DNA of 24,648 bases from a virus. A model generated the notes under the pieces. That model saw nothing but the letters and a program-made list of their open reading frames with translations, was not told the DNA's origin and ran no database searches. Position 1 is the stretch's first letter. Each line of letters opens with the position of its first letter. The DNA lies in IMG/VR virus record IMGVR_UViG_3300031658_000116, positions 1-24,648 of that record; one strand, given 5' to 3'. The position numbers and the translations under genes are program-made. Below, piece by piece: positions 1,377 through 22,024 of this stretch.

Positions 1377-3239
1377 ATGATGACTGACTACCAAACCTTT
1401 ATTCACCTCTCTCGCTACTCTCGTTGGTTAGAAGAAGAACAACGTAGAGAGACCTTACCTGAGACAGTAGCTCGTTACATGTCTACTTGGGAAGGTAAGC
1501 TTTCTAACGAAGATCACTTAGAACTAGCTTCTTCTATTGAGTCTCTAAAAACTATGCCTTCTATGAGAGCTATGTGGGCTGCAGGACCAGCACTACAACG
1601 TAATAACATTACAGGGTACAACTGTTCCTATCTTAAGATTGATACTCCTCGCGCTTTCGATGAGGCTATGTACATTCTTATGTGTGGTACAGGTGTTGGT
1701 TTCTCTGTTGAAGCTACAGATGTAAGTAAACTACCTATTATTAATGATCACTTCCAGCCATCAGAACGACTGATTGCTATCGAGGATTCTAAAGAAGGTT
1801 GGGCTAAAGCTCTACGTAAACACATTGCAGACCTCTATCTAGGTCGTGTACACTTCTTTGACTATACTAAGATTCGTCCTGCTGGCGCTAAGCTGAAGAC
1901 TATGGGGGGTAGAGCTTCTGGCCCTGAACCTCTCCGTGAGCTACTTGAGTTTACTACGAATTTATTCAAGAAGGCAGCTGGACGTAAACTAAACCCTATT
2001 GAGTGTCACGATCTTATGTGTAAGATTGGCGAGATTGTTGTTGTAGGGGGCGTACGTCGCTCTGCTATGATCTCTCTCAGTGACCTAGGTGATCACACTA
2101 TGCAGAACGCTAAGTCAGGTACTTGGTGGGAGGCCAGTGCACACCGTGCTCTTGCTAACAATTCGGCTGTATACTTACAGAAGCCTGATGCTCTAGCTTT
2201 TATCAAAGAGTGGACAGCTCTTATTGAGTCTAAGTCAGGTGAGCGTGGTATCTATAGCCGTGGTGGTGCTCAGAAGAGTGCTCCTGCTCGTCGTGATGCA
2301 GAACAAATTCATGGGACTAACCCGTGCGCAGAGATCGCTCTCAGATCAAATCAGTTCTGTAACCTAACAGAGGTAGTACTACGTAGTGATGACACTCTAG
2401 ACACTATCAAAGTTAAAATTAAGGTAGCCACTATTATGGGTACCTTGCAAGCAACTCTAACTAACTTCCCTTACCTTCGTAGTATCTGGAAGCACAACAC
2501 AGAAGAAGAACGATTGTTAGGTGTCTCTCTTACAGGCATTTGTGACTGCCCTGCGTTGATTAACGCTACAGAAGAACAGATTCAAACTCTGCGGGATTAC
2601 GCGGTAGAAGTTAACGTACTCTGGGCTGAAAAGCTAGGTATCCCTGCTTCAACTGCGGTGACAACTATCAAGCCCTCAGGTACAGTCTCTCAACTTGTAG
2701 ACTCTGCTTCCGGTATTCATGGTCGTTTCTCTCCTCAATACATTCGTACAGTACGAGGTGATAACAAAGATCCTATCACAGACTTTATGAAGTCTAAGGG
2801 TGTTCCAAGTGAACCTTGTGCTATGAAACCTGATAGCACTACGATCTTCTCTTTTCCAATCAAGAGCCCAAAAGGTTCTATTATGGTGGATGATCTTACT
2901 GCTATTGAACAACTGGAACTGTGGTTGAAGTTGAAAAAGAACTGGGCTGAACACTCTGTCTCTGTCACTGTCTATGTGAAAGAAGATGAGTGGATGAAGG
3001 TTGGTTCCTGGGTCTATGAGAACTTCGATCACCTTACAGGAGTATCGTTCTTGCCTTACACCGAACACTCTTATGCGCAAGCACCTTATCAGCCTGTCTC
3101 TGAAGAGGAATACAATGCAGCAATCTCCACGTTCCCCAATAATATCGATTGGACTAGTCTCAGTCTCTATGAAAAAGAAGACAACACCGAGGGTGCACAA
3201 ACACTCGCCTGTGTTGGAGGAGCCTGCGAAATCAAATAA
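1377..3239 (+). CDS. nrdJ: Adenosylcobalamin-dependent (class II, monomeric) ribonucleotide reductase
   Basis: This 620-residue enzyme would reduce ribonucleotides to deoxyribonucleotides in the cytoplasm using coenzyme B12. By comparison with the Lactobacillus leichmannii enzyme, the active site is complete. NCSYL gives Cys83 and NPCAEI gives the thiyl-radical Cys317 with Glu319. NQFCNL gives Cys328, the redox partner of Cys83. The C-terminal pair ACVGGAC (Cys612, Cys617) would re-reduce the active site. TTIKPSGTVS is the conserved phosphate-site loop, and GVRRSAMISL is also present. It is shorter than the roughly 740 residues of the bacterial enzyme. Two tandem ATGs open the frame (1377 and 1380), with AAGGA at 1362-1366. 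It lies between fibre and tail genes, not in a replication module, which is unusual for a metabolic gene. A class II enzyme needs no oxygen or iron but needs cobalamin from the host or the environment. Confidence 0.95.
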   Translation: MMTDYQTFIHLSRYSRWLEEEQRRETLPETVARYMSTWEGKLSNEDHLELASSIESLKTMPSMRAMWAAGPALQRNNITGYNCSYLKIDTPRAFDEAMYILMCGTGVGFSVEATDVSKLPIINDHFQPSERLIAIEDSKEGWAKALRKHIADLYLGRVHFFDYTKIRPAGAKLKTMGGRASGPEPLRELLEFTTNLFKKAAGRKLNPIECHDLMCKIGEIVVVGGVRRSAMISLSDLGDHTMQNAKSGTWWEASAHRALANNSAVYLQKPDALAFIKEWTALIESKSGERGIYSRGGAQKSAPARRDAEQIHGTNPCAEIALRSNQFCNLTEVVLRSDDTLDTIKVKIKVATIMGTLQATLTNFPYLRSIWKHNTEEERLLGVSLTGICDCPALINATEEQIQTLRDYAVEVNVLWAEKLGIPASTAVTTIKPSGTVSQLVDSASGIHGRFSPQYIRTVRGDNKDPITDFMKSKGVPSEPCAMKPDSTTIFSFPIKSPKGSIMVDDLTAIEQLELWLKLKKNWAEHSVSVTVYVKEDEWMKVGSWVYENFDHLTGVSFLPYTEHSYAQAPYQPVSEEEYNAAISTFPNNIDWTSLSLYEKEDNTEGAQTLACVGGACEIK

Positions 3240-11646: not shown

Positions 11647-14307
11647 ATGGCTGATATACTTTCAGGAAATCTCTGGGAAAATTACAAAGAAAAACTAGGC
11701 TATATAGAAAGCTCTAATAGATATGAGATCAAAGGTGGGACTAATGATCACTACGATGGCAAGTATCAATTTGGAAAGATAGCTAAGAAAGACATTGGTC
11801 TGGGTCACTCTATCAAAGAGAGAGAAGCTTTTAGAAAAGATCCTGCTGCTCAAGAAAAAGCCTTACTTGATCTCAGTAAATTAAATTACAAAAGATTACT
11901 TCAAAACCCAAAGTTTGCCGAGATGAGCACCGATCAGCAAATGGGAGTACTTGCTTATGCTCACAACCAAGGTGCAGGTGGTGCTAAGAAATGGTTAAAT
12001 ACAGGTAAGGTAGGTAAAGATGGTTTTGGAACCCTAGGAACTAAGTACTATTCTGCTTTCTCCGATAAATCACCTTTTGATTTTAGAGGAGTAGAAGAAA
12101 GCCTACGCCCTCAGTTAAGACCGACAGACTTAGATACTACACGCGCAGCTACAAACTTTGTTTCCTTACCAGCAGTAGCTGTTCCGCCAGTTCAATCTAA
12201 AATACCCCCTACATATGTACCACCAGTAACCCACGTAACGGGTACACAGCAAATAAACCCTAATGATGTAGACACCGCAGTACGTGAGGCGCTGCTTCCC
12301 TCCGCCGGGTTTCCTTCTCCTACTACTGTGTCTCATATTCGTCAAGGTTTTAACCAAGGTACAGCGGAAGTTCCTCAAGTAGCGGGGTATAACGATGGCA
12401 CTGAGAGTGTAAGTTGGCTTGACAGTCTTCGTTCTATCTTCGATCGAGTGCCTTCTGGGGAAGAACTCCGAGACACTGCAAGAAGAGCCAGGGAAGAAAC
12501 TTATAATCCTGCTCCAGAGGTTAACACAGGCGTACCTTTACAGGTCAACGATGTTAATTTGTTACCTCCTGCTCTTCCACCTCAGGCGTCAGCTATAGAA
12601 AAAGGTTACGTTCCTACTCAAATGGGTGCGACTGAGTTAAACTTACCTAAGTTTATTAACGCTAACTCTAACGTACCTACTGCTCCTCAAGCGGTTCCTG
12701 TTATTGGTCGTAATATGGATGTAGCTATGGGAGATGACGGTAGACCTAGGATACCTGCTATGCACCTATCAGATCCTTTGCTTAACGCGGCTATGGACTA
12801 TAATCCAGGTGGTGTTTACTCTCGAGATGGTCAGGAAGTAAAGTACACTCAGACAGAAGCATTCCCTGCTCCTGTTATACCTGCTTCTCAAGAGAATATC
12901 AGGTTAGCTAATGAGATTAGAATAGTATCTGATGAGCTCTCTATCACGCCACCCGGACGTATGTACGACCGTGTACAAGTGCAGCTAAATGAACTAAAAA
13001 GACAACAAGCTGCCTTAGGTGAAACAACTGTACCTACGGTTTTGTCTCCCTCTAACTACCCTCCGATCTCTGAGGTTGAAATTGATGGTGACGAGGTGTA
13101 CAGTGGTCGAGGTGACTTAGGTATGCCCAAAGACCCTGCGCTTGTCACTGAGTCTAGTGTCGCAGCACCTAAAACTAAAGAAGACGTTGAAGCTCAGATC
13201 ATTGCGAAAGATGTTGCAAGAAACATAGATATCGAAAATGAAGCAGACCTTAAGAAAAAGTCAGATGAAGCAATTCAAAACAGTGGACTAGGCATAGATT
13301 CCTTAAAGGGGCTTGGTTCTAAGCTACTAGAAATATTCGATATGGAAAGTAGTGATGTAACTAAAGCTATAGGCCTTTATTTGTTATCCAGAGCTACTGG
13401 TGCTTCTCATGGAGGTTCTATGCGCTGGGCGGGTGGTACTGTTCTTAATCAGGTTGAAACTCGCACTGCAGCAGAGAACAAGACTAAAGCTGAGGTAGCA
13501 AAGACTGAAGCAACATCTAAAGTTTTACTTGCTTCTGGTTATACCCCAGAGTCTGTAGCTGCATGGTCCGCCACAGGTATTGCTGGTACCTTAGATAAAC
13601 CTGGACCCGACTATACACAAAAACAACTTCGTGACAAGTACGCAGAAATACTGGCAGGAAATAAGTTTACACCTGAATCACTTAAGGCTGCTTTTGGTAC
13701 TGTTCCTGGACAGTTTAATCCTGGCTTCCTTACATTGAAAGGAGGTAATGGTAAAACTAATGCTGAAAACTCACAATTGCTCATCAAAGACTTAAGGTCT
13801 AACTTTGAGAATATAATAAAAGAAGCTTTTGAAGGCAATGAAGAACAAGGCGCAATCTTTTTATCAGATATGATGACAAGCGCTGAAACTCACTGGGTTA
13901 GCTCTGGTATTCCTATTGGAGACGAAGCAGTTGGCGCTAACATTAAGCGAGTCACCTCTCTCGCTATGGAAGCAGCTATGGCTGACTCTAAAAGGGGTAC
14001 TACAACAGTTAAAGACATTACCCCTTACATTAAGAATATGTCTTTGGACGAGTATGCACAGTCTGGAACAGATTCTATCTGGGCAATCGGAAGTACGAGT
14101 AAAGTAGATTCTTCTAAAGTAGCAGTACTTAGAAAGGATATGTACTCTAAGTCCGGTGGTGATACTGAAGTAATGAAAGGCGCTTTTTTATCTGCAGTAG
14201 ATGAATTTGAAGACCTAACTCCTGACCAAAAGGCTAGGTTAAAGCCCGGTAAAGGGGAAAATAAGTTTTATGTTTATCTACGAGAAAAACTTGCTGGGTT
14301 ACAATAA
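11647..14307 (+). CDS. Internal virion protein with N-terminal transglycosylase-like domain
   Basis: This is an 886-residue protein. Residues about 10-125 resemble a lysozyme/lytic transglycosylase fold. IESSNRY carries the likely catalytic Glu21, YDGKYQFGKIAKKDIG (36-51) takes the place of the usual GLxQ segment, and AYAHNQGAGG (103-112) matches the AYNxG element. Such a domain would cut peptidoglycan locally while DNA is delivered, as the N-terminus of T7 gp16 does. A proline-rich, disordered linker follows (about 160-500), with FNQGTAEVP (235-243) and YNDGTESV (248-255) motifs shared with the preceding protein. Then come helical regions, including LLSRATGASHGGSMRWAGG (about 578-596). AGGAG at 11634-11638 sets the ATG. 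The gene is certain; the enzymatic domain is likely. Confidence 0.78.
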   Translation: MADILSGNLWENYKEKLGYIESSNRYEIKGGTNDHYDGKYQFGKIAKKDIGLGHSIKEREAFRKDPAAQEKALLDLSKLNYKRLLQNPKFAEMSTDQQMGVLAYAHNQGAGGAKKWLNTGKVGKDGFGTLGTKYYSAFSDKSPFDFRGVEESLRPQLRPTDLDTTRAATNFVSLPAVAVPPVQSKIPPTYVPPVTHVTGTQQINPNDVDTAVREALLPSAGFPSPTTVSHIRQGFNQGTAEVPQVAGYNDGTESVSWLDSLRSIFDRVPSGEELRDTARRAREETYNPAPEVNTGVPLQVNDVNLLPPALPPQASAIEKGYVPTQMGATELNLPKFINANSNVPTAPQAVPVIGRNMDVAMGDDGRPRIPAMHLSDPLLNAAMDYNPGGVYSRDGQEVKYTQTEAFPAPVIPASQENIRLANEIRIVSDELSITPPGRMYDRVQVQLNELKRQQAALGETTVPTVLSPSNYPPISEVEIDGDEVYSGRGDLGMPKDPALVTESSVAAPKTKEDVEAQIIAKDVARNIDIENEADLKKKSDEAIQNSGLGIDSLKGLGSKLLEIFDMESSDVTKAIGLYLLSRATGASHGGSMRWAGGTVLNQVETRTAAENKTKAEVAKTEATSKVLLASGYTPESVAAWSATGIAGTLDKPGPDYTQKQLRDKYAEILAGNKFTPESLKAAFGTVPGQFNPGFLTLKGGNGKTNAENSQLLIKDLRSNFENIIKEAFEGNEEQGAIFLSDMMTSAETHWVSSGIPIGDEAVGANIKRVTSLAMEAAMADSKRGTTTVKDITPYIKNMSLDEYAQSGTDSIWAIGSTSKVDSSKVAVLRKDMYSKSGGDTEVMKGAFLSAVDEFEDLTPDQKARLKPGKGENKFYVYLREKLAGLQ

Positions 14308-14331
14308 ATCAAATGATTAAGGAGAAACTAA

Positions 14332-17300
14332 ATGGCTATATCTGAACTAGAAAGGCTCTGGGCTGCTCAAGGCACTCCGATTAAAAGAGAAGGCACTCAA
14401 GTAGGTGACACTGCAGTCTCCGTTGTTGACGCCGATACTGCTAGGGTCGGAGAAGGTGAGAATATACGTATTAATGACGTAGACGCTCCTGAAGTAAAGC
14501 ACTTTAATACTAGCTCCTTTGACTTTGATGACGGAGAAGTGTCAGGACAACTTGTAACTGATGCTACTGCTAATATTATTGAGAAGGAGGGATTCACAAA
14601 TGAATCTCTCCAGACTCAGGACAGAGCAGGCCCTGGTTTTATTACTGGAGAAAAGGTAAGAAGAGGGTTTTATGGTAGACCACTAGGGGATCTGGTAACA
14701 GACTCTGGTCAACACCTATCCAGCCGATTACTATCTTCTGGCTTGGCAACAGTAGATCGTTTTGGTGCTAAGTCAAACTATGATGGTACTGCCAGTAATG
14801 CTGTAGTTGTTCAATCTATGGGCGCTTTAGATCGGGCAGTACGTAAGGCAGAGGGAACTGAGAACGACAATGACCGTGTAGTTAATATGATTAATCAGAA
14901 TCGTATAGACAAGTCTTTAGATACCTATGGTTCTGCCTTTGTAGGTAAGCCAATGGCTGTTTCTGAGGCGGTGTTTTCTCGTAACCCAGACTTATACTCT
15001 GGAGTATCGATCAGAGATGAAAGCCGTAGTATAATGAATGAAACTAGAGGCTTCCAAATAGGTGATGCTTTTAAGTCAGGTACTAAACAAGGATTACTGG
15101 GTGCAAGTACCGCTATGGCTGTGATTGGGGAAGTATTAAACGTAGACTCAATGGAAAACTGGGGTCAAGGTAATGCAAATAAAATTAAGAGACAGATAGA
15201 GGATCTACCTCGATTAAAGAATGTAAATGCCTTTGATCCAGAAACAGGTGAATGGACTTTAGATGGTATTTCTGAGTTCGCAAGTTACATCGGTACTAAC
15301 TTTGCTTCTTCTTTACCTATTATGGGTATAACCTTGGGGGCAGCAGTATTAGCTGTGCCTACTAAGGGGTTATCTCTTACTGTTCCTGCCTCTATTTATA
15401 CTGGGCTTAACTATGACTCTCAAGCTAAAGATGACAAACATATTGCTAAGGCTTTTGGTTATGGTGTCTTACAAACTTCTCTAGACTTACTAACTGTGTA
15501 TGTACCTACAAATAAACTGGCTAGCTTCTTTACTAACTCTTCATCAAGAAAAGAAGTCGTTAAGGAAGTAGCGAAAAAGTATGGCACAAGTAATGAGGCT
15601 GCAGAAAAGCTCTTAGCCCAGACTATGCGTAAACAAGCAGAGCGAGGTGTTGAAATAACCTCTGATCAGATAAAGCGTGCTATTAAAAGCAAAGCTGCGA
15701 AAGCGGCGGCGGCAGGTATTACTATTGGAGGCAGTGCGCTTGTAGAAGGCTTCACTGAATCTACCCAAGAAATACTTTCTGTATTCGCAGAAAACAGCGA
15801 TGAGACTCCTGAAAACCTACACAATAGATTGTTGAATTCTTTCTCAGCGGGCTTCTTTCTTGGCGGAGGATTTGGTGCAGTAGGTGAAGCTGCGTCCGTA
15901 GGTAGCCAGTATAATGAAAGGGTAGGTCTATCTGACAGTAATCGAATACTAGAAAAAGATCAGGCAGTTGCCTTTGACGACGGTAAAGAGCTAGACGTCC
16001 TTGGGGCAAGGCAGGCTAACACTAACGCCAGATTTGGTCCATCAAAAGACGATAATAGTAATGCTAGTCTTGCTGCCCTGGCAGACCTAGAGCCAGATGC
16101 TAATGACCCTTCAGGGTTAATTGACAGAGGATCTAGGTTAGGAATAAAAGCCCTTCAGGGACAAGTTAATAATATCTTTTCAAGAGTAAAAACCAATGGC
16201 CCTATTATGAATAGACTTGCTTCTATTTATGGAGCAGCTAATGGTAGAGCAGGAGGTAATCTGGAAGAGAGACAGCAACTTCTCACAGCTAATTATTCTG
16301 GTAAGCAACAGTTTGATGAAAGAATAATGATTAGTGAATCTCCTTTCAGAAACAAAAAACAGTTTGTAGATCATGTTTATCTCCCTGAGAATCAAGCTAA
16401 GTATGAAACTATTCTTAAGCGGGGCGCTAAAACTAGAACTATAACTGTAGCAGATATTAAGAATAAATCTGGAATCGAATTAGATGCTTGGGAAGTAAAT
16501 TTTCTACAAGCAGTGCTTGACTCTAACAGACAAGCTAGTATAGATTCTGGGACAGAAGTAAACATTTTATCTAGAGGGTTTAGTGCCAGTAGGGTTTACA
16601 GTAAACAAACTGAATTTGAAAACTTACTAGTCAGTGAATACAAAATACCTAGACAAGATGCTGAAAGGATGTCGCAGATATTTAGTAGTACAGAAGAATA
16701 CACTACACCTAAAGACATAGGTGATGCTATGTTAAACTTAGACAGTAACGCTATAGATGTACGAGCCTTAGGTGATGTAACGCAAAGACCTGCTTTTAAA
16801 GATTTCTTAGAACCAGACCCTTTTGTTTCCATTGCTAACAACAGTAACAAAGCTGCAGCCAAGGTAATAAACAGTCAATTCATCGGTGCTAACGGTTCTT
16901 TTGCCGCCAGTGATCTTAATAAAGCTTTCAGTAATGGTGAAATCACTTATAATGAGAGAATACAACTAGCTAGAGGTATACAGAAATATCACGCACAAAA
17001 ATCAGGTACGGATAACGTTATACGTAGTAAAGCATATAATCGCACAATGAATATTATAACTACTACTACCGCGTTAACTTACTTAGGTAAAGCTGTTATC
17101 TCTTCTATACCAGAGATTGGTACTGTTATATTTAATGGCAACCCTAATAAGATGAAAGCAGTGTATACTCTAGCTAAAACATCAGCTGCAGAAATGACTG
17201 CTCTTGTCAATGAGTCTCTTAACTCACTTTCAGGAGGTAGGGTATCTATGAGAGAGTATCAACACCGAAAGGAACTTAGAGCTGCAGGTTATTTAGCAGA

Positions 17301-18276
17301 TCAACAGTCACCTGCTGCAAGAGTTGGTGCGGAGTATTCTCCTGCTCAAGCTATCTTAGTTAATAACTTCTTCCGTTGGACAGGACTTAACTCTCTAACA
17401 AACTTACAAAGGAGTGTTAGGTTATCTATAGCTAGAGATGCAATTCAACACTGGGAAGCTCAAGGCGCACTTCATATGCCTGAAGCAGGTCAAAAACCTA
17501 ATAAATATTATCAAGAAGCAAGAGATCAGTTATCTAGACTAGGTTTGGACTCAGATAAGTTTATTACTCAAGCATATATAAATGATGTTAGAGGAGACCC
17601 CACTGGTCAAGGTGACAGTAACGCAGAGGTAGACGCTTATGAAGAACAACTTAAAGTAGGTTCAGTTAGATTTGTAGACATGGCGATAGCTATGCCTAGA
17701 AAAGGAAATCGACCTGCTTTTTATAGTGACCCTAGATTTAGAATGTTTACTATGTTTCAAGGTTATACCTCAACAGTTACTGCTACTATACTGCCTCAGA
17801 TCTTCAAGGATTTAGGTGGTAAAGAATCTATGCCTGCTGCAAGAGTGCAGGCTATTACTACGATGACTTCTATGTTGGCCCTAGCCTTCCTCTCTATTGC
17901 AATGAAAGATGCATTAACTGGAAAAGAAGAAAAGGAAGAAAGAGAAGGCGATGATTTTAAACACATTATGCGGGGAATATATTCCTCGGGACTGGTCGGT
18001 ACTGCACAACGCCCGATCGATGCTATCTTTCCTCTGTATGGAGAAAAGAACTCTCTTGTAGGGAAAGGCATTGGTAGGGTATTAGGAAACACTGCTGGAG
18101 AAGTAACGGACTCCGTCATTTCAGAATCAGTGGCACTCAACTACCTAGATGATTTAGGTAAAGCAGTTGAAGGACATATTTCTGATGATGATAATAAGTG
18201 GAGAAGAACACTTAACGTCACTCCTCTAGCGGGGACAATGTTGAAAGACAGGGTCTCACCGTACCAGTTGAAATAG
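14332..18276 (+). CDS. Very large ejection protein with N-terminal staphylococcal-nuclease-like domain
   Basis: This is a 1314-residue protein. Residues about 27-145 read as a thermonuclease (SNase/TNc) domain: VVDADT (31-36), IRI (45-47), VDAPE (50-54), YGRPLGDL (114-121) and LLSSGLATV (133-141). Set against staphylococcal nuclease, D33/D35/T36, R46, D51, E54 and R116 correspond to D19/D21/T22, R35, D40, E43 and R87, so the catalytic set seems intact. The rest has several hydrophobic or small-residue segments that could enter a membrane (about 324-359, 455-476, 503-525, 910-933 and 1174-1197), as in T7 gp16-type proteins. AAGGAG at 14319-14324 is the ribosome site. Placement after the transglycosylase protein supports an ejected, envelope-spanning role. 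The nuclease could act on incoming, host or competing DNA, or could be structural only. Confidence 0.75.
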   Translation: MAISELERLWAAQGTPIKREGTQVGDTAVSVVDADTARVGEGENIRINDVDAPEVKHFNTSSFDFDDGEVSGQLVTDATANIIEKEGFTNESLQTQDRAGPGFITGEKVRRGFYGRPLGDLVTDSGQHLSSRLLSSGLATVDRFGAKSNYDGTASNAVVVQSMGALDRAVRKAEGTENDNDRVVNMINQNRIDKSLDTYGSAFVGKPMAVSEAVFSRNPDLYSGVSIRDESRSIMNETRGFQIGDAFKSGTKQGLLGASTAMAVIGEVLNVDSMENWGQGNANKIKRQIEDLPRLKNVNAFDPETGEWTLDGISEFASYIGTNFASSLPIMGITLGAAVLAVPTKGLSLTVPASIYTGLNYDSQAKDDKHIAKAFGYGVLQTSLDLLTVYVPTNKLASFFTNSSSRKEVVKEVAKKYGTSNEAAEKLLAQTMRKQAERGVEITSDQIKRAIKSKAAKAAAAGITIGGSALVEGFTESTQEILSVFAENSDETPENLHNRLLNSFSAGFFLGGGFGAVGEAASVGSQYNERVGLSDSNRILEKDQAVAFDDGKELDVLGARQANTNARFGPSKDDNSNASLAALADLEPDANDPSGLIDRGSRLGIKALQGQVNNIFSRVKTNGPIMNRLASIYGAANGRAGGNLEERQQLLTANYSGKQQFDERIMISESPFRNKKQFVDHVYLPENQAKYETILKRGAKTRTITVADIKNKSGIELDAWEVNFLQAVLDSNRQASIDSGTEVNILSRGFSASRVYSKQTEFENLLVSEYKIPRQDAERMSQIFSSTEEYTTPKDIGDAMLNLDSNAIDVRALGDVTQRPAFKDFLEPDPFVSIANNSNKAAAKVINSQFIGANGSFAASDLNKAFSNGEITYNERIQLARGIQKYHAQKSGTDNVIRSKAYNRTMNIITTTTALTYLGKAVISSIPEIGTVIFNGNPNKMKAVYTLAKTSAAEMTALVNESLNSLSGGRVSMREYQHRKELRAAGYLADQQSPAARVGAEYSPAQAILVNNFFRWTGLNSLTNLQRSVRLSIARDAIQHWEAQGALHMPEAGQKPNKYYQEARDQLSRLGLDSDKFITQAYINDVRGDPTGQGDSNAEVDAYEEQLKVGSVRFVDMAIAMPRKGNRPAFYSDPRFRMFTMFQGYTSTVTATILPQIFKDLGGKESMPAARVQAITTMTSMLALAFLSIAMKDALTGKEEKEEREGDDFKHIMRGIYSSGLVGTAQRPIDAIFPLYGEKNSLVGKGIGRVLGNTAGEVTDSVISESVALNYLDDLGKAVEGHISDDDNKWRRTLNVTPLAGTMLKDRVSPYQLK

Positions 18277-18289
18277 GAGAAATAAATAG

Positions 18290-21200
18290 ATGGCTAAAAT
18301 TAACACAGGTCAAGTAGGAGTAGGTGGCCCCGGTACTAATATCGATCCACTACAACAGCTACAGCAACAAGGCCGACAACCAGATGGCACTCCCTCACAA
18401 GGAGTGTCATTTGAGGCGGCACCTACTACTCCACCTACCTACTCAGGTATGAGCGCTGAACAGATAGCTGCTGTAAGGAATATTCCTGGGTTTGAAAAAG
18501 AGGTGTCTGCGTTTGACTCTTATCAAAACCAACTACAACAATACAAACGAGAAAATGTACAACCGTTAAGACAACCTCCTAGCCAAGTTCCTAACGAGAC
18601 CTTCCCGTTAGGTAATCAACCTCAAGTTCAGGTGGGTCAAAACTTTTTGGCGGAAACCATTAGAACTCCAGAAGGCGAGTTAGAGTCACTAGAACAACAA
18701 GTGGAAAGACAGCGTTTAGAGACTAATAGAGCTAACGCGGCTGCTACTCAGAACAACTTAGGTAGCAGGCTTAAAAACTCTCAGGAGCTAAGAGGATTCT
18801 TTTCTCCTACTTTTCAAAAACCACAAGTTGATGATCTTACTAGACAAGTTTTAAACTCTGGGCTGAAGCTTAATGAGATAGACTTGAATATTAAAACAAG
18901 TCAGTTAGATCCTGGTAGAAGCCTCTCTGCTTTAGAGCACATGAAAGAGAAATATAGTGCTTCTGAGACTGAGGTAGCTTTGTTTGCAGAAGATACATAC
19001 TTAGGTGCAGCGAAGATACTACTTGGTCTACAAAATAAAGTAGAGGCAGAAGAAAGTGGTTTTGAGTTTGCAGATTTAGGCGGAGAGACTTTAGGTGATG
19101 CAACCTTTCAAATCACTAACGGTCTGGTTGCTGTAGAAGCAAAAGCCTTTGAGGGCTTTCTGGCCGCTAACTTTAATGGTAGAATGATAGAAGCCACCCA
19201 ACAACCTAACAACCCCGATGAACCAATGGGGCGAGCTCTTGCTCGTGCAGCGGTTAACAAAGGTTATTACGAGTGGGTAGACGGTTATCAACCTGTAGAC
19301 GGAAAGGGCTTAGCTAAGGGTCCAAAGATTAGTGGTTACGCTATGACTGCAGATCTAAAAATGCAGAATGATAAGTACAGAGACTATGCTAGTTTATCCC
19401 CTATCCGTATCGGAGCGGTGGCAGCTACTAATAATAGTACTACTTCTATGGGGTCTTTGTCTTTGTTTCAAAAGAGAGATACACCTAGACCTAAAGGTAA
19501 ACTATCTAAAGAGCTGAAGAACACTACTGGTATGTTTAGCAACTTTACTTCTACTATTTCTAACTCTTTCCGTATACACAGTAATCCTGTACTTCAATCA
19601 GATGCTGGTTTTATTTCTGCTGCTACAGCTTACGACCAAGCTTATATGAATGGTCAAGAAATAACACCTACTATGTCTATGCTTAACTCGGCTGCAGAAA
19701 AGTTTTTTAAACTAAAACCTTGGTCAGGAGATAAACTAAACGATCAGAACCCTGATGTTGTGGCTCAAGAGAAACAAAACATACTTGAGTCTAGATCTAG
19801 AAAGCTCAAGTTGATGGCTAACCAGGTTGCAGATGCAACTAACCTTAACGTACAACTACCTAACGGACACAAGGTTGGGGGTGGTGTATTTGTAGATCCC
19901 TCTGCTATGCGTAACTACATCTACGCTTATAATAGCTCAGAGCAGAACTCTACCATTATGAGAGGCTCACTGAGAGGTTACGCTAACCAAACACTTACTA
20001 CTCGTATATATAATAAACCATCATCAACACCCCTTATCTCTCGCAGTGACTTAACTTCTTTGAGAAACAAGTCGAGAAAAGGAGGAGAGATAACCGCCGC
20101 AGATAAGGAAGTTATTTTCTTACTTATGTTAGGCCGAGAGATGGCTAATGTAGGAGGAGAAAGCGGACGTACACGCACGGATGAACAACTACTGCCTCTC
20201 ATTACTCCTGCTTTTGTAAGAGACATTGCGCTTAAGGGCAAAGCAATTAAACAGTACTCAGAAGTAAACGCTGATCCTCAGAAGTTAACTAATGCTATAG
20301 AGGCAGAAAACACTACTTCTATGCTAGACCCAGCACAAAACAATGCACTTCAAGGTGCTTTGTTTGCTATGTCAGCTTCACCTAAACATCATGGTGCAGT
20401 TCAACAGATGTTAGAGGCAGCTGATAGTTACGTTAACGCAGAAGGTGCTTCTACTTTAATGACATTTAACGTCTTCCCTGATATGTCATCAGCAGGTCGA
20501 CTTAACCCTGTTTTAAACGCAGATGGTTCTTTAGGTGCAGAGATTATATCAAGAATGGGATATTATCTCAGCCAAGAGTATACTGATCATATAGGTAAAT
20601 TACCTGCTTTAGGTGAAAGTGCAGGTACTTTCCCCTTAGGTAACCCTCGTTTATATGTTGCCGAAGCAGTTATACATTCACTGCATAACTCTGCTAGCGA
20701 AGGAAACATGGACGTTGCGCTAGCTGGCCTTCTTGAAGATTTGTTTACCACAGAGTTTGGAGGGGATCTCGCAGATACCTTTATGAAAACTCCTGCTATG
20801 GTAGTAGATTATGGTATGGCAATTTCTGGTGCAGGTAAGGTTGCTGCTGGCTTATTTTCTAAGCTTATAAAAGAGGCAGACACTGCGGGCTACAACGCTT
20901 CCGGTAAGTTAGCTACTCTTGCGGAAGCCAACAATGTTACTATGTCTGAAATTACAGACAGTATTGCAGGAGCTACTGCAGAAGCACTTACTTCTGTAGC
21001 TAACCCTTCTTACTCTAGTGCTTTTCAAAAGATGGGCCTAGCCTTAGGTGTACTTAATAAAGCCCCAGTATATGTAGGTTATGACGGTAATGTTCACCAA
21101 GTGGGTCAGCGAGAGCGTAGAGAAATCTTTGGTTCCTCAGTAACTCTATCTGATAATACGGGGTTTTCTAGCGCTGCTCCTATGAGAGAAGATACTTTGA

Positions 21201-22024
21201 CAGACTCTCCAGGTAAAAGAGTAGAACCAAAAGCACGTAAGGTGGATGGTCGTTGGGAATTTTCTACCCCATCGGTTTATTCTGCACAATCACAAGCATG
21301 GTCACCCGCGGTGGGACACTATACTGAGCGTGCTATTATCTCTAAGGCATTGGAGATATATGAGAAACGTTTTGGTAAGCTTGATAATATTATCTTAGAT
21401 GGACATGATTCTATTGGTATGGATTTTGCTCAGTCTTATCATTTTCAAAACATACTTCAGAATGAAGCTATTTTTGACATTCTTGAACAAGACCTACCTA
21501 GAAAGGCTGCTAGAGCTTCTCTTCAAGCAATGCGGGATTCTATTGAAGAAATTGATAAGCTAGGTAAAATTGTTACTCTAGGACCTAACAGTGATTATAG
21601 CCACCTTACTGATTATTTAGATGACTTGTATGATTCTTTGAAGACAATGGATGTTAATCCTACAGGTGCTACTCCAGAAGCAGTTAGGAATCGTAGAAAG
21701 GCTTTGAATAAAAACTTGTCAATTCTTTTAGCGGCTAATCTGAAAAATATTTGGGCACCTAAAGGTCCGGGACAAGTTCAGGAAATTGCAGAGTTTATTT
21801 TTTATAAAAATAACTCCTCTGATGCTTCTAGTTTTCAAGTAGAAGGAAAGGACTTTACTAAATGGTACTATGATTCTTTCTATAAACCAGCAGAGAACGC
21901 AGGTTTAAGCTTTATAAACACAGGATCTGACCTTCGTAAGAAAATGATTGCAGCGATGAAAACTGTTCCAGAAGGTATGATAGCCTTCTTTAGAAACGGC
22001 CCAGATAAGGCTGCTTCTCAGTAA
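18290..22024 (+). CDS. Very large virion protein of unknown function, last late gene
   Basis: This 1244-residue soluble-looking protein has no recognised enzyme domain, signal peptide or convincing membrane span. It starts AKINTGQVGVGG, like the tail protein at 3335. It continues with a Gln/Pro-rich low-complexity region (about residues 20-120) and is then largely helical with many Asn, Ser and Ala. A segment near residue 1030 (KLDNIILDGHDSIGMDF) is distinctive, but I cannot assign it. AGGAG at 18275-18279 lies ten bases before the ATG, and its stop is immediately followed by a terminator. Size, position after the other internal proteins and lack of any catalytic motif suggest a virion or ejection component. 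That is inference. Confidence 0.65.
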   Translation: MAKINTGQVGVGGPGTNIDPLQQLQQQGRQPDGTPSQGVSFEAAPTTPPTYSGMSAEQIAAVRNIPGFEKEVSAFDSYQNQLQQYKRENVQPLRQPPSQVPNETFPLGNQPQVQVGQNFLAETIRTPEGELESLEQQVERQRLETNRANAAATQNNLGSRLKNSQELRGFFSPTFQKPQVDDLTRQVLNSGLKLNEIDLNIKTSQLDPGRSLSALEHMKEKYSASETEVALFAEDTYLGAAKILLGLQNKVEAEESGFEFADLGGETLGDATFQITNGLVAVEAKAFEGFLAANFNGRMIEATQQPNNPDEPMGRALARAAVNKGYYEWVDGYQPVDGKGLAKGPKISGYAMTADLKMQNDKYRDYASLSPIRIGAVAATNNSTTSMGSLSLFQKRDTPRPKGKLSKELKNTTGMFSNFTSTISNSFRIHSNPVLQSDAGFISAATAYDQAYMNGQEITPTMSMLNSAAEKFFKLKPWSGDKLNDQNPDVVAQEKQNILESRSRKLKLMANQVADATNLNVQLPNGHKVGGGVFVDPSAMRNYIYAYNSSEQNSTIMRGSLRGYANQTLTTRIYNKPSSTPLISRSDLTSLRNKSRKGGEITAADKEVIFLLMLGREMANVGGESGRTRTDEQLLPLITPAFVRDIALKGKAIKQYSEVNADPQKLTNAIEAENTTSMLDPAQNNALQGALFAMSASPKHHGAVQQMLEAADSYVNAEGASTLMTFNVFPDMSSAGRLNPVLNADGSLGAEIISRMGYYLSQEYTDHIGKLPALGESAGTFPLGNPRLYVAEAVIHSLHNSASEGNMDVALAGLLEDLFTTEFGGDLADTFMKTPAMVVDYGMAISGAGKVAAGLFSKLIKEADTAGYNASGKLATLAEANNVTMSEITDSIAGATAEALTSVANPSYSSAFQKMGLALGVLNKAPVYVGYDGNVHQVGQRERREIFGSSVTLSDNTGFSSAAPMREDTLTDSPGKRVEPKARKVDGRWEFSTPSVYSAQSQAWSPAVGHYTERAIISKALEIYEKRFGKLDNIILDGHDSIGMDFAQSYHFQNILQNEAIFDILEQDLPRKAARASLQAMRDSIEEIDKLGKIVTLGPNSDYSHLTDYLDDLYDSLKTMDVNPTGATPEAVRNRRKALNKNLSILLAANLKNIWAPKGPGQVQEIAEFIFYKNNSSDASSFQVEGKDFTKWYYDSFYKPAENAGLSFINTGSDLRKKMIAAMKTVPEGMIAFFRNGPDKAASQ

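Follow-up and report, generated by a model that had tools for sequence, protein, structure and literature searches.

A staphylococcal-type nuclease domain fronts a large, probably injected virion protein in a marine short-tailed phage and its sampled relatives

Introduction

The enzymatic heads described so far for ejection proteins of podoviruses cut peptidoglycan. In T7 gp16 such a head, a transglycosylase, occupies residues 1–156 and forms the periplasmic wings of the gp15 tunnel, being followed by a "molecular tape" at residues 157–228, and in proteins of the K1E gp35-type the muralytic domain is found, as in the locus described here, on the gp15-like protein (PMC8954989). Homologues of gp16-type proteins in P22 and Sf6 have no N-terminal transglycosylase. 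The 2022 review of podovirus ejection proteins does not contain the word nuclease (PMC8954989), and in the literature covered by our search, mostly outside subscription journals, no description of a staphylococcal nuclease (SNase) domain on an ejection or internal virion protein of a podovirus was found. Among polyvalent injected proteins, DNase domains that are not ParB-like neither accompany nor displace the ParB-like ones (Iyer et al. 2017, PMC5512222).

The closest published precedent is the hub protein of BtI1, where an SNase-related N-terminal domain stands in the place that a transglycosylase takes in the homologous gp147 of Bacillus phage 0305phi8-36, for a reason that its authors find not obvious (PMC2147016). 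It resembles the protein considered below in that the domain is N-terminal on a virion protein and stands in the transglycosylase place. BtI1 differs in that the protein is a baseplate hub, the element is myovirus-like and its host is Gram-positive, and it is a single described case without conservation analysis. Here we analyse a stretch of 24,648 bases of a virus record (the window), in which late genes form a module on the + strand and the − strand encodes a T7-like RNA polymerase (PF00940, E 1.2e-56).

Results

The SNase-headed, ejection-type virion protein of 1314 aa is encoded at 14332..18276 (+) by an ORF with ATG start, a Shine-Dalgarno-like AAGGAG upstream (14319..14324, +) and homologues in other phages. 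These include proteins of L002 (91% identity), L003 (28%) and Roseobacter phage CRP-7 (gp34, 19%), the latter being a podovirus that infects an RCA roseobacter (Rhodobacteraceae) (PMC6918029). Scans of viral contigs gave L002 as the sole close homologue together with many distant ones, while bacterial genome contigs yielded no confirmed relatives. CRP-7 gp34 was the only protein of an isolated phage found to have an SNase head in a tblastn search of 50,697 phage records, which is insensitive at such divergence. The window phage is kin to CRP-7 beyond this protein, since its ribonucleotide reductase is 86% and 81% identical to two CRP-7 pieces. The reductase gene of CRP-7 (gp46–gp44, L004:4345-6963), annotated as two CDS, is split by a group I intron (RF00028, 79 bits, L004:5319-5529) with a 157-aa ORF after it; the homologous gene of the window (1377-3239) is uninterrupted.

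The first-pass annotation had placed an SNase-like domain at 14332-14770 on the basis of motifs. The domain is indeed there, but it runs further, to about residue 173, so that residues of about 27–173 (14410..14850, +) are assigned to it because the fold match spans model residues 27–173. PF00565, with a curated cut-off of 21 bits, aligns with residues 45–147 and scores 21.4 bits on the whole protein and 25.3 bits on the head alone. In a six-frame search the head was the single PF00565 match of the window (24.9 bits, E 4e-7). A profile built of ten heads (A5) and compared with PDB gave staphylococcal nuclease as all 60 matches listed, with the best E of 2.5e-6 and about 4e-5 for the wild type, profile positions 29–152 being aligned. 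The AlphaFold2 model of residues 1–180 has a mean pLDDT of 64, with most core blocks at 71–84, and its elements follow the SNase order: three strands, helix, strand, strand, helix and helix. Staphylococcal nuclease was the only protein among 50 Foldseek matches listed for this model (E 2.5e-5, probability 1.00), and VIA-align superimposed 120 residues of the two structures at 3.4–3.5 Å with Z of 10.5 (model residues 27–173), which bears out the OB-fold.

The whole-protein Pfam score is barely over the cut-off, as might be expected if the resemblance were accidental and no SNase domain were present. However, shuffling of the head reproduced the loose SNase motif in just 14 of 20,000 trials, the PDB profile, the fold, the six-frame search and the conservation described below all agree with it, and chance resemblance was rejected as practically negligible. 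That the 1314-aa protein begins with an SNase domain can thus be regarded as confirmed. Four BFVD models of further large viral proteins (A0A6J5NQ80, A7KUR9, A0A516LXN0 and A0A7R7G2A4) contain an SNase-like part and are possibly additional nuclease-headed virion proteins.

All residues named in the first-pass annotation (V31-V32-D33-A34-D35-T36, R46, V50-D51-A52-P53-E54 and Y114-G115-R116) were found at their positions. Aligned with staphylococcal nuclease, D33-A-D35-T36 (14428..14439, +) supplies equivalents of D19, the calcium ligand D21 and T22; R46 (14467..14469, +) corresponds to catalytic R35; D51-A-P-E54 (14482..14493, +) to the calcium ligand D40, T41, P42 and catalytic E43; and R116 of the YGR motif (14677..14679, +) to catalytic R87. 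Both calcium ligands are therefore matched in the window, by D35 and D51. Fold, element order and the D19/D21/T22/R35/E43/R87 set are common to the window head and staphylococcal nuclease, together with D40. The spacing differs: 11 residues instead of 14 separate the equivalents of D21 and R35, while 62 instead of 44 separate those of E43 and R87. The longer distance includes an insertion of 13 residues (98–110, window 14623-14661) between E54 and R116, which was observed in the window and L002 only. Unlike staphylococcal nuclease, the window head is acidic (18 K+R versus 27 D+E) and fused to a virion protein of ~1,100 aa, and in most of its relatives D40 is replaced.

Conservation was estimated for 29 distinct heads with complete N-terminus and identity down to 19%. 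The SNase head was present in all 29 of them, and the residues D33, D35, T36, R46, E54 and R116 are identical throughout, so that the catalytic positions pointed out in the first-pass annotation proved to be conserved among homologues. The D40-equivalent position, represented by D51, is variable: D in 9 heads, N in 17, S in 2 and G in 1. Aspartate is retained in the groups of the window, L002, L044, L049 and CRP-7, and asparagine prevails in the large metagenomic group; judging by these replacements in 20 of 29 heads, activity or metal preference may differ among the members. A stricter set comprised 18 heads remaining after clustering below 80% identity (pairwise 19–70%). Of its 151 columns only 8 never vary, six being the equivalents of D19, D21, T22, R35, E43 and R87 (hypergeometric 1.9e-9, for a residue set picked knowing the result). 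For the textbook set D21/R35/D40/T41/E43/R87, four positions of six are invariant (about 5e-5, calculated by hand). Comparison of the heads of the window and L002 gave dN/dS of 0.052 at dS of 0.41, which indicates purifying selection.

Since the relatives all keep the active site almost intact, the head is a putative working enzyme rather than a leftover. Nucleic-acid binding is common among OB-folds, and this, as well as the lack of D40 conservation in the family, would suit a non-catalytic module whose role during ejection is to grip DNA or to keep the ejection complex assembled. The first-pass annotation had also considered DNA gripping. Yet invariance falls on the catalytic residues, unlike in domains with lost activity, and the head is acidic, so a pure gripping role is disfavoured and the non-catalytic explanation as a whole seems improbable to us.

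Every locus that extends far enough shows the same gene order: ORFs of ~140–310 aa, ~125–450 aa and 700–1220 aa, the SNase protein, an ORF of 1115–1340 aa, and then genes of the opposite strand. The SNase ORF is thus the large ORF that follows the gp15-like one in the late structural cluster. In the window its downstream partner (1244 aa, 18290..22024, +) is syntenic in relatives, and domain searches recognised none of the known domains in it. Its upstream partner (886 aa, 11647..14307, +) has a muralytic domain at residues 9–138 (PHROG_5867 endolysin, E 9.6e-26), in line with the initial reading that such activity belongs to the previous protein. The muralytic family varies from phage to phage, being of endolysin type in the window, pesticin-like in CRP-7, GH108 in L013, phage lysozyme in L044, SLT in L015, L017 and L040, and of other endolysin or transglycosylase types in L003, L016 and L035; in the partners from L014 and L049 no muralytic domain was recognised. 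Across these loci the wall-cutting enzyme is freely swapped, whereas the SNase stays constant. Several unrelated muralytic families cover wall cutting from the upstream partner, and the SNase is therefore not needed for it. In Vibrio phage 1.262.O the gene directly before the headless homologue (L068:724-1908) has a phospholipase C domain according to its annotation, and its product is perhaps another enzyme on an ejection apparatus.

The virion-protein core occupies residues 241–1314 (15052..18273, +). From about residue 240 onward, homology of the family to PaP3 orf19 is evident (hhalign probability 99.3, E 8.8e-21, 834 columns). Most of the relatives scanned matched PHROG_6958 (virion structural protein), while the window protein alone gave no match with this profile at E 0.1. 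The core homologues PaP3 orf19, LUZ24 gp50 and Vibrio KIT05_21 are annotated as virion structural or particle proteins; they share with the window protein ~830 aligned columns, the late structural position and hydrophobic segments. Fusion of the nuclease to a large virion-type protein with membrane-compatible segments, noticed at first reading, is thereby upheld, Kyte-Doolittle profiles locating such segments at residues of about 322–355 (15295..15396, +) and 1169–1196 (17836..17919, +). Between residues 472 and 512 (window 15745-15867) a pattern E..TE..QE followed by glycine-rich G...GG is invariant in the four proteins of our first alignment, in a region otherwise diverged. Pfam revealed in the window protein no LPD/MPTase-type domains characteristic of polyvalent injected proteins.

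The designation "gp16-like" holds in part. Gene order and size are in its favour: T7 gp16 is alike in size, in its place after another large protein and in having an enzymatic N-terminal domain of ~150 residues. However, homology to T7 ejection proteins was detected neither by profile nor by fold, a nuclease replaces the transglycosylase and the muralytic domain sits on the previous protein. The C-terminal core profile found only chance matches in PDB and no solved ejection protein, and the fold search with the C-terminal model, which is poor (pLDDT 56), yielded no significant match. The window protein is therefore outside the T7 subgroup of gp16-type ejection proteins, having SNase instead of the N-terminal transglycosylase.

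In contrast to the window protein, PaP3 orf19, LUZ24 gp50 and KIT05_21 lack the SNase head, and their phages encode endonuclease I instead. By profile, the head was detected in 13 of 13 headed records and in none of 9 other podophages. Endonuclease I (PF05367) showed the reciprocal distribution. It was found in eight of the nine headless phages (PaP3, KIT05, JB8, LUZ24, tf, SCYZ1, Vibrio 1.262.O and CRP-4, with the matches of PaP3, LUZ24 and SCYZ1 below the curated cut-off) and gave no match in KPP25. Among the 13 SNase-headed records, including the complete genome of CRP-7 but also metagenomic records that may be incomplete, it had no match at all. As to other endonucleases, endonuclease VII is present in 2 of 13 headed records and VRR_NUC is absent in all 16 records searched. 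CRP-7 is annotated with an exonuclease and without an endonuclease.

Such a distribution would be expected if the SNase entered the cytoplasm and made the first cuts in host DNA, replacing that part of the job of T7-type endonuclease I, with the phage exonuclease degrading the fragments and the ribonucleotide reductase, which is encoded in the window, helping to recycle them. On the other hand, diverged or other endonucleases can escape detection, and an ejected enzyme would be unable to resolve branched DNA late in infection. Free calcium is low in the cytoplasm. Moreover, a phylogeny of the C-terminal region sets the headed proteins apart from those of PaP3 and KIT05 (100/100, long branches, midpoint root), so that the whole pattern may reflect a single event. 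T7-like RNA polymerase is encoded in all 13 headed records (G001-G012 and CRP-7) and was not detectable in headless PaP3, KIT05 and JB8. The reciprocity of the SNase head and endonuclease I is a lead that is confounded by ancestry, and we consider cytoplasmic action rather unlikely.

Discussion

Based on these data one can propose, with a probability of roughly 0.55, that the N-terminal ~175 residues are an SNase with catalytic competence and probable calcium dependence, which a podovirus ejection protein brings into the host. That an active nuclease is delivered with the ejection apparatus at all is, in our opinion, rather probable; its action in the periplasm is a tentative version of this proposal, somewhat short of an even chance. 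We infer ejection from homology and gene order; the activity, substrate and compartment assigned to the enzyme are putative as well. The SNase-headed protein would be packaged in the head and ejected ahead of DNA, like the other large podovirus proteins encoded here. The enzyme might stay latent in the capsid and become activated as the protein refolds during ejection. Most likely the head would then face the calcium-rich periplasm from the outside of the conduit and cut nucleic acid there, while phage DNA passes inside, protected. The periplasmic exposure is suggested because the head stands where T7 gp16 has its transglycosylase, on the periplasmic tunnel; since homology to T7 gp16 was undetected, this is an argument by position. 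A target of the SNase in the periplasm is not obvious. The cytoplasmic alternative fits the genome comparison better than the periplasmic one, but fits worse with topology and with the calcium requirement.

An active nuclease lying next to packaged phage DNA has to be kept switched off, and the analysis identified neither an inhibitor nor a propeptide. The region taken up by the ejection proteins of P22 can be entered by packaged DNA (PMC8402733), so that a nuclease residing there would need latency. The same access to DNA might let the SNase work in virions or in the cell that produces them, for instance on DNA ends in packaging or head filling. Headless relatives, however, package their DNA without SNase and a nonspecific nuclease is ill-suited for end trimming, which makes this option very improbable. 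Returning to delivery with the ejection apparatus, one may speculate that in this aquatic podovirus lineage a built-in nonspecific nuclease replaces the early-expressed endonuclease I, and that the attack on host DNA starts at ejection, before phage gene expression; the change from D to N at the calcium site would then adapt the enzyme to cytoplasmic metals. We regard this extended scenario as unlikely, even more so than cytoplasmic action as such.

Thus, a marine short-tailed phage and all its sampled relatives have a complete staphylococcal-type nuclease in front of a large, probably injected protein. The SNase fold itself is ordinary; its combination with an ejection-type protein is unusual. 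Several questions become testable, namely what keeps the nuclease from harming the packaged DNA, which compartment it works in and whether it stands in for endonuclease I. CRP-7, isolated on a Rhodobacteraceae (RCA) host, offers experimental access to them. That the nuclease is fixed and its catalytic set unchanging, beside a muralytic domain that is freely exchanged, indicates that podovirus ejection proteins can carry an enzyme directed at nucleic acids.
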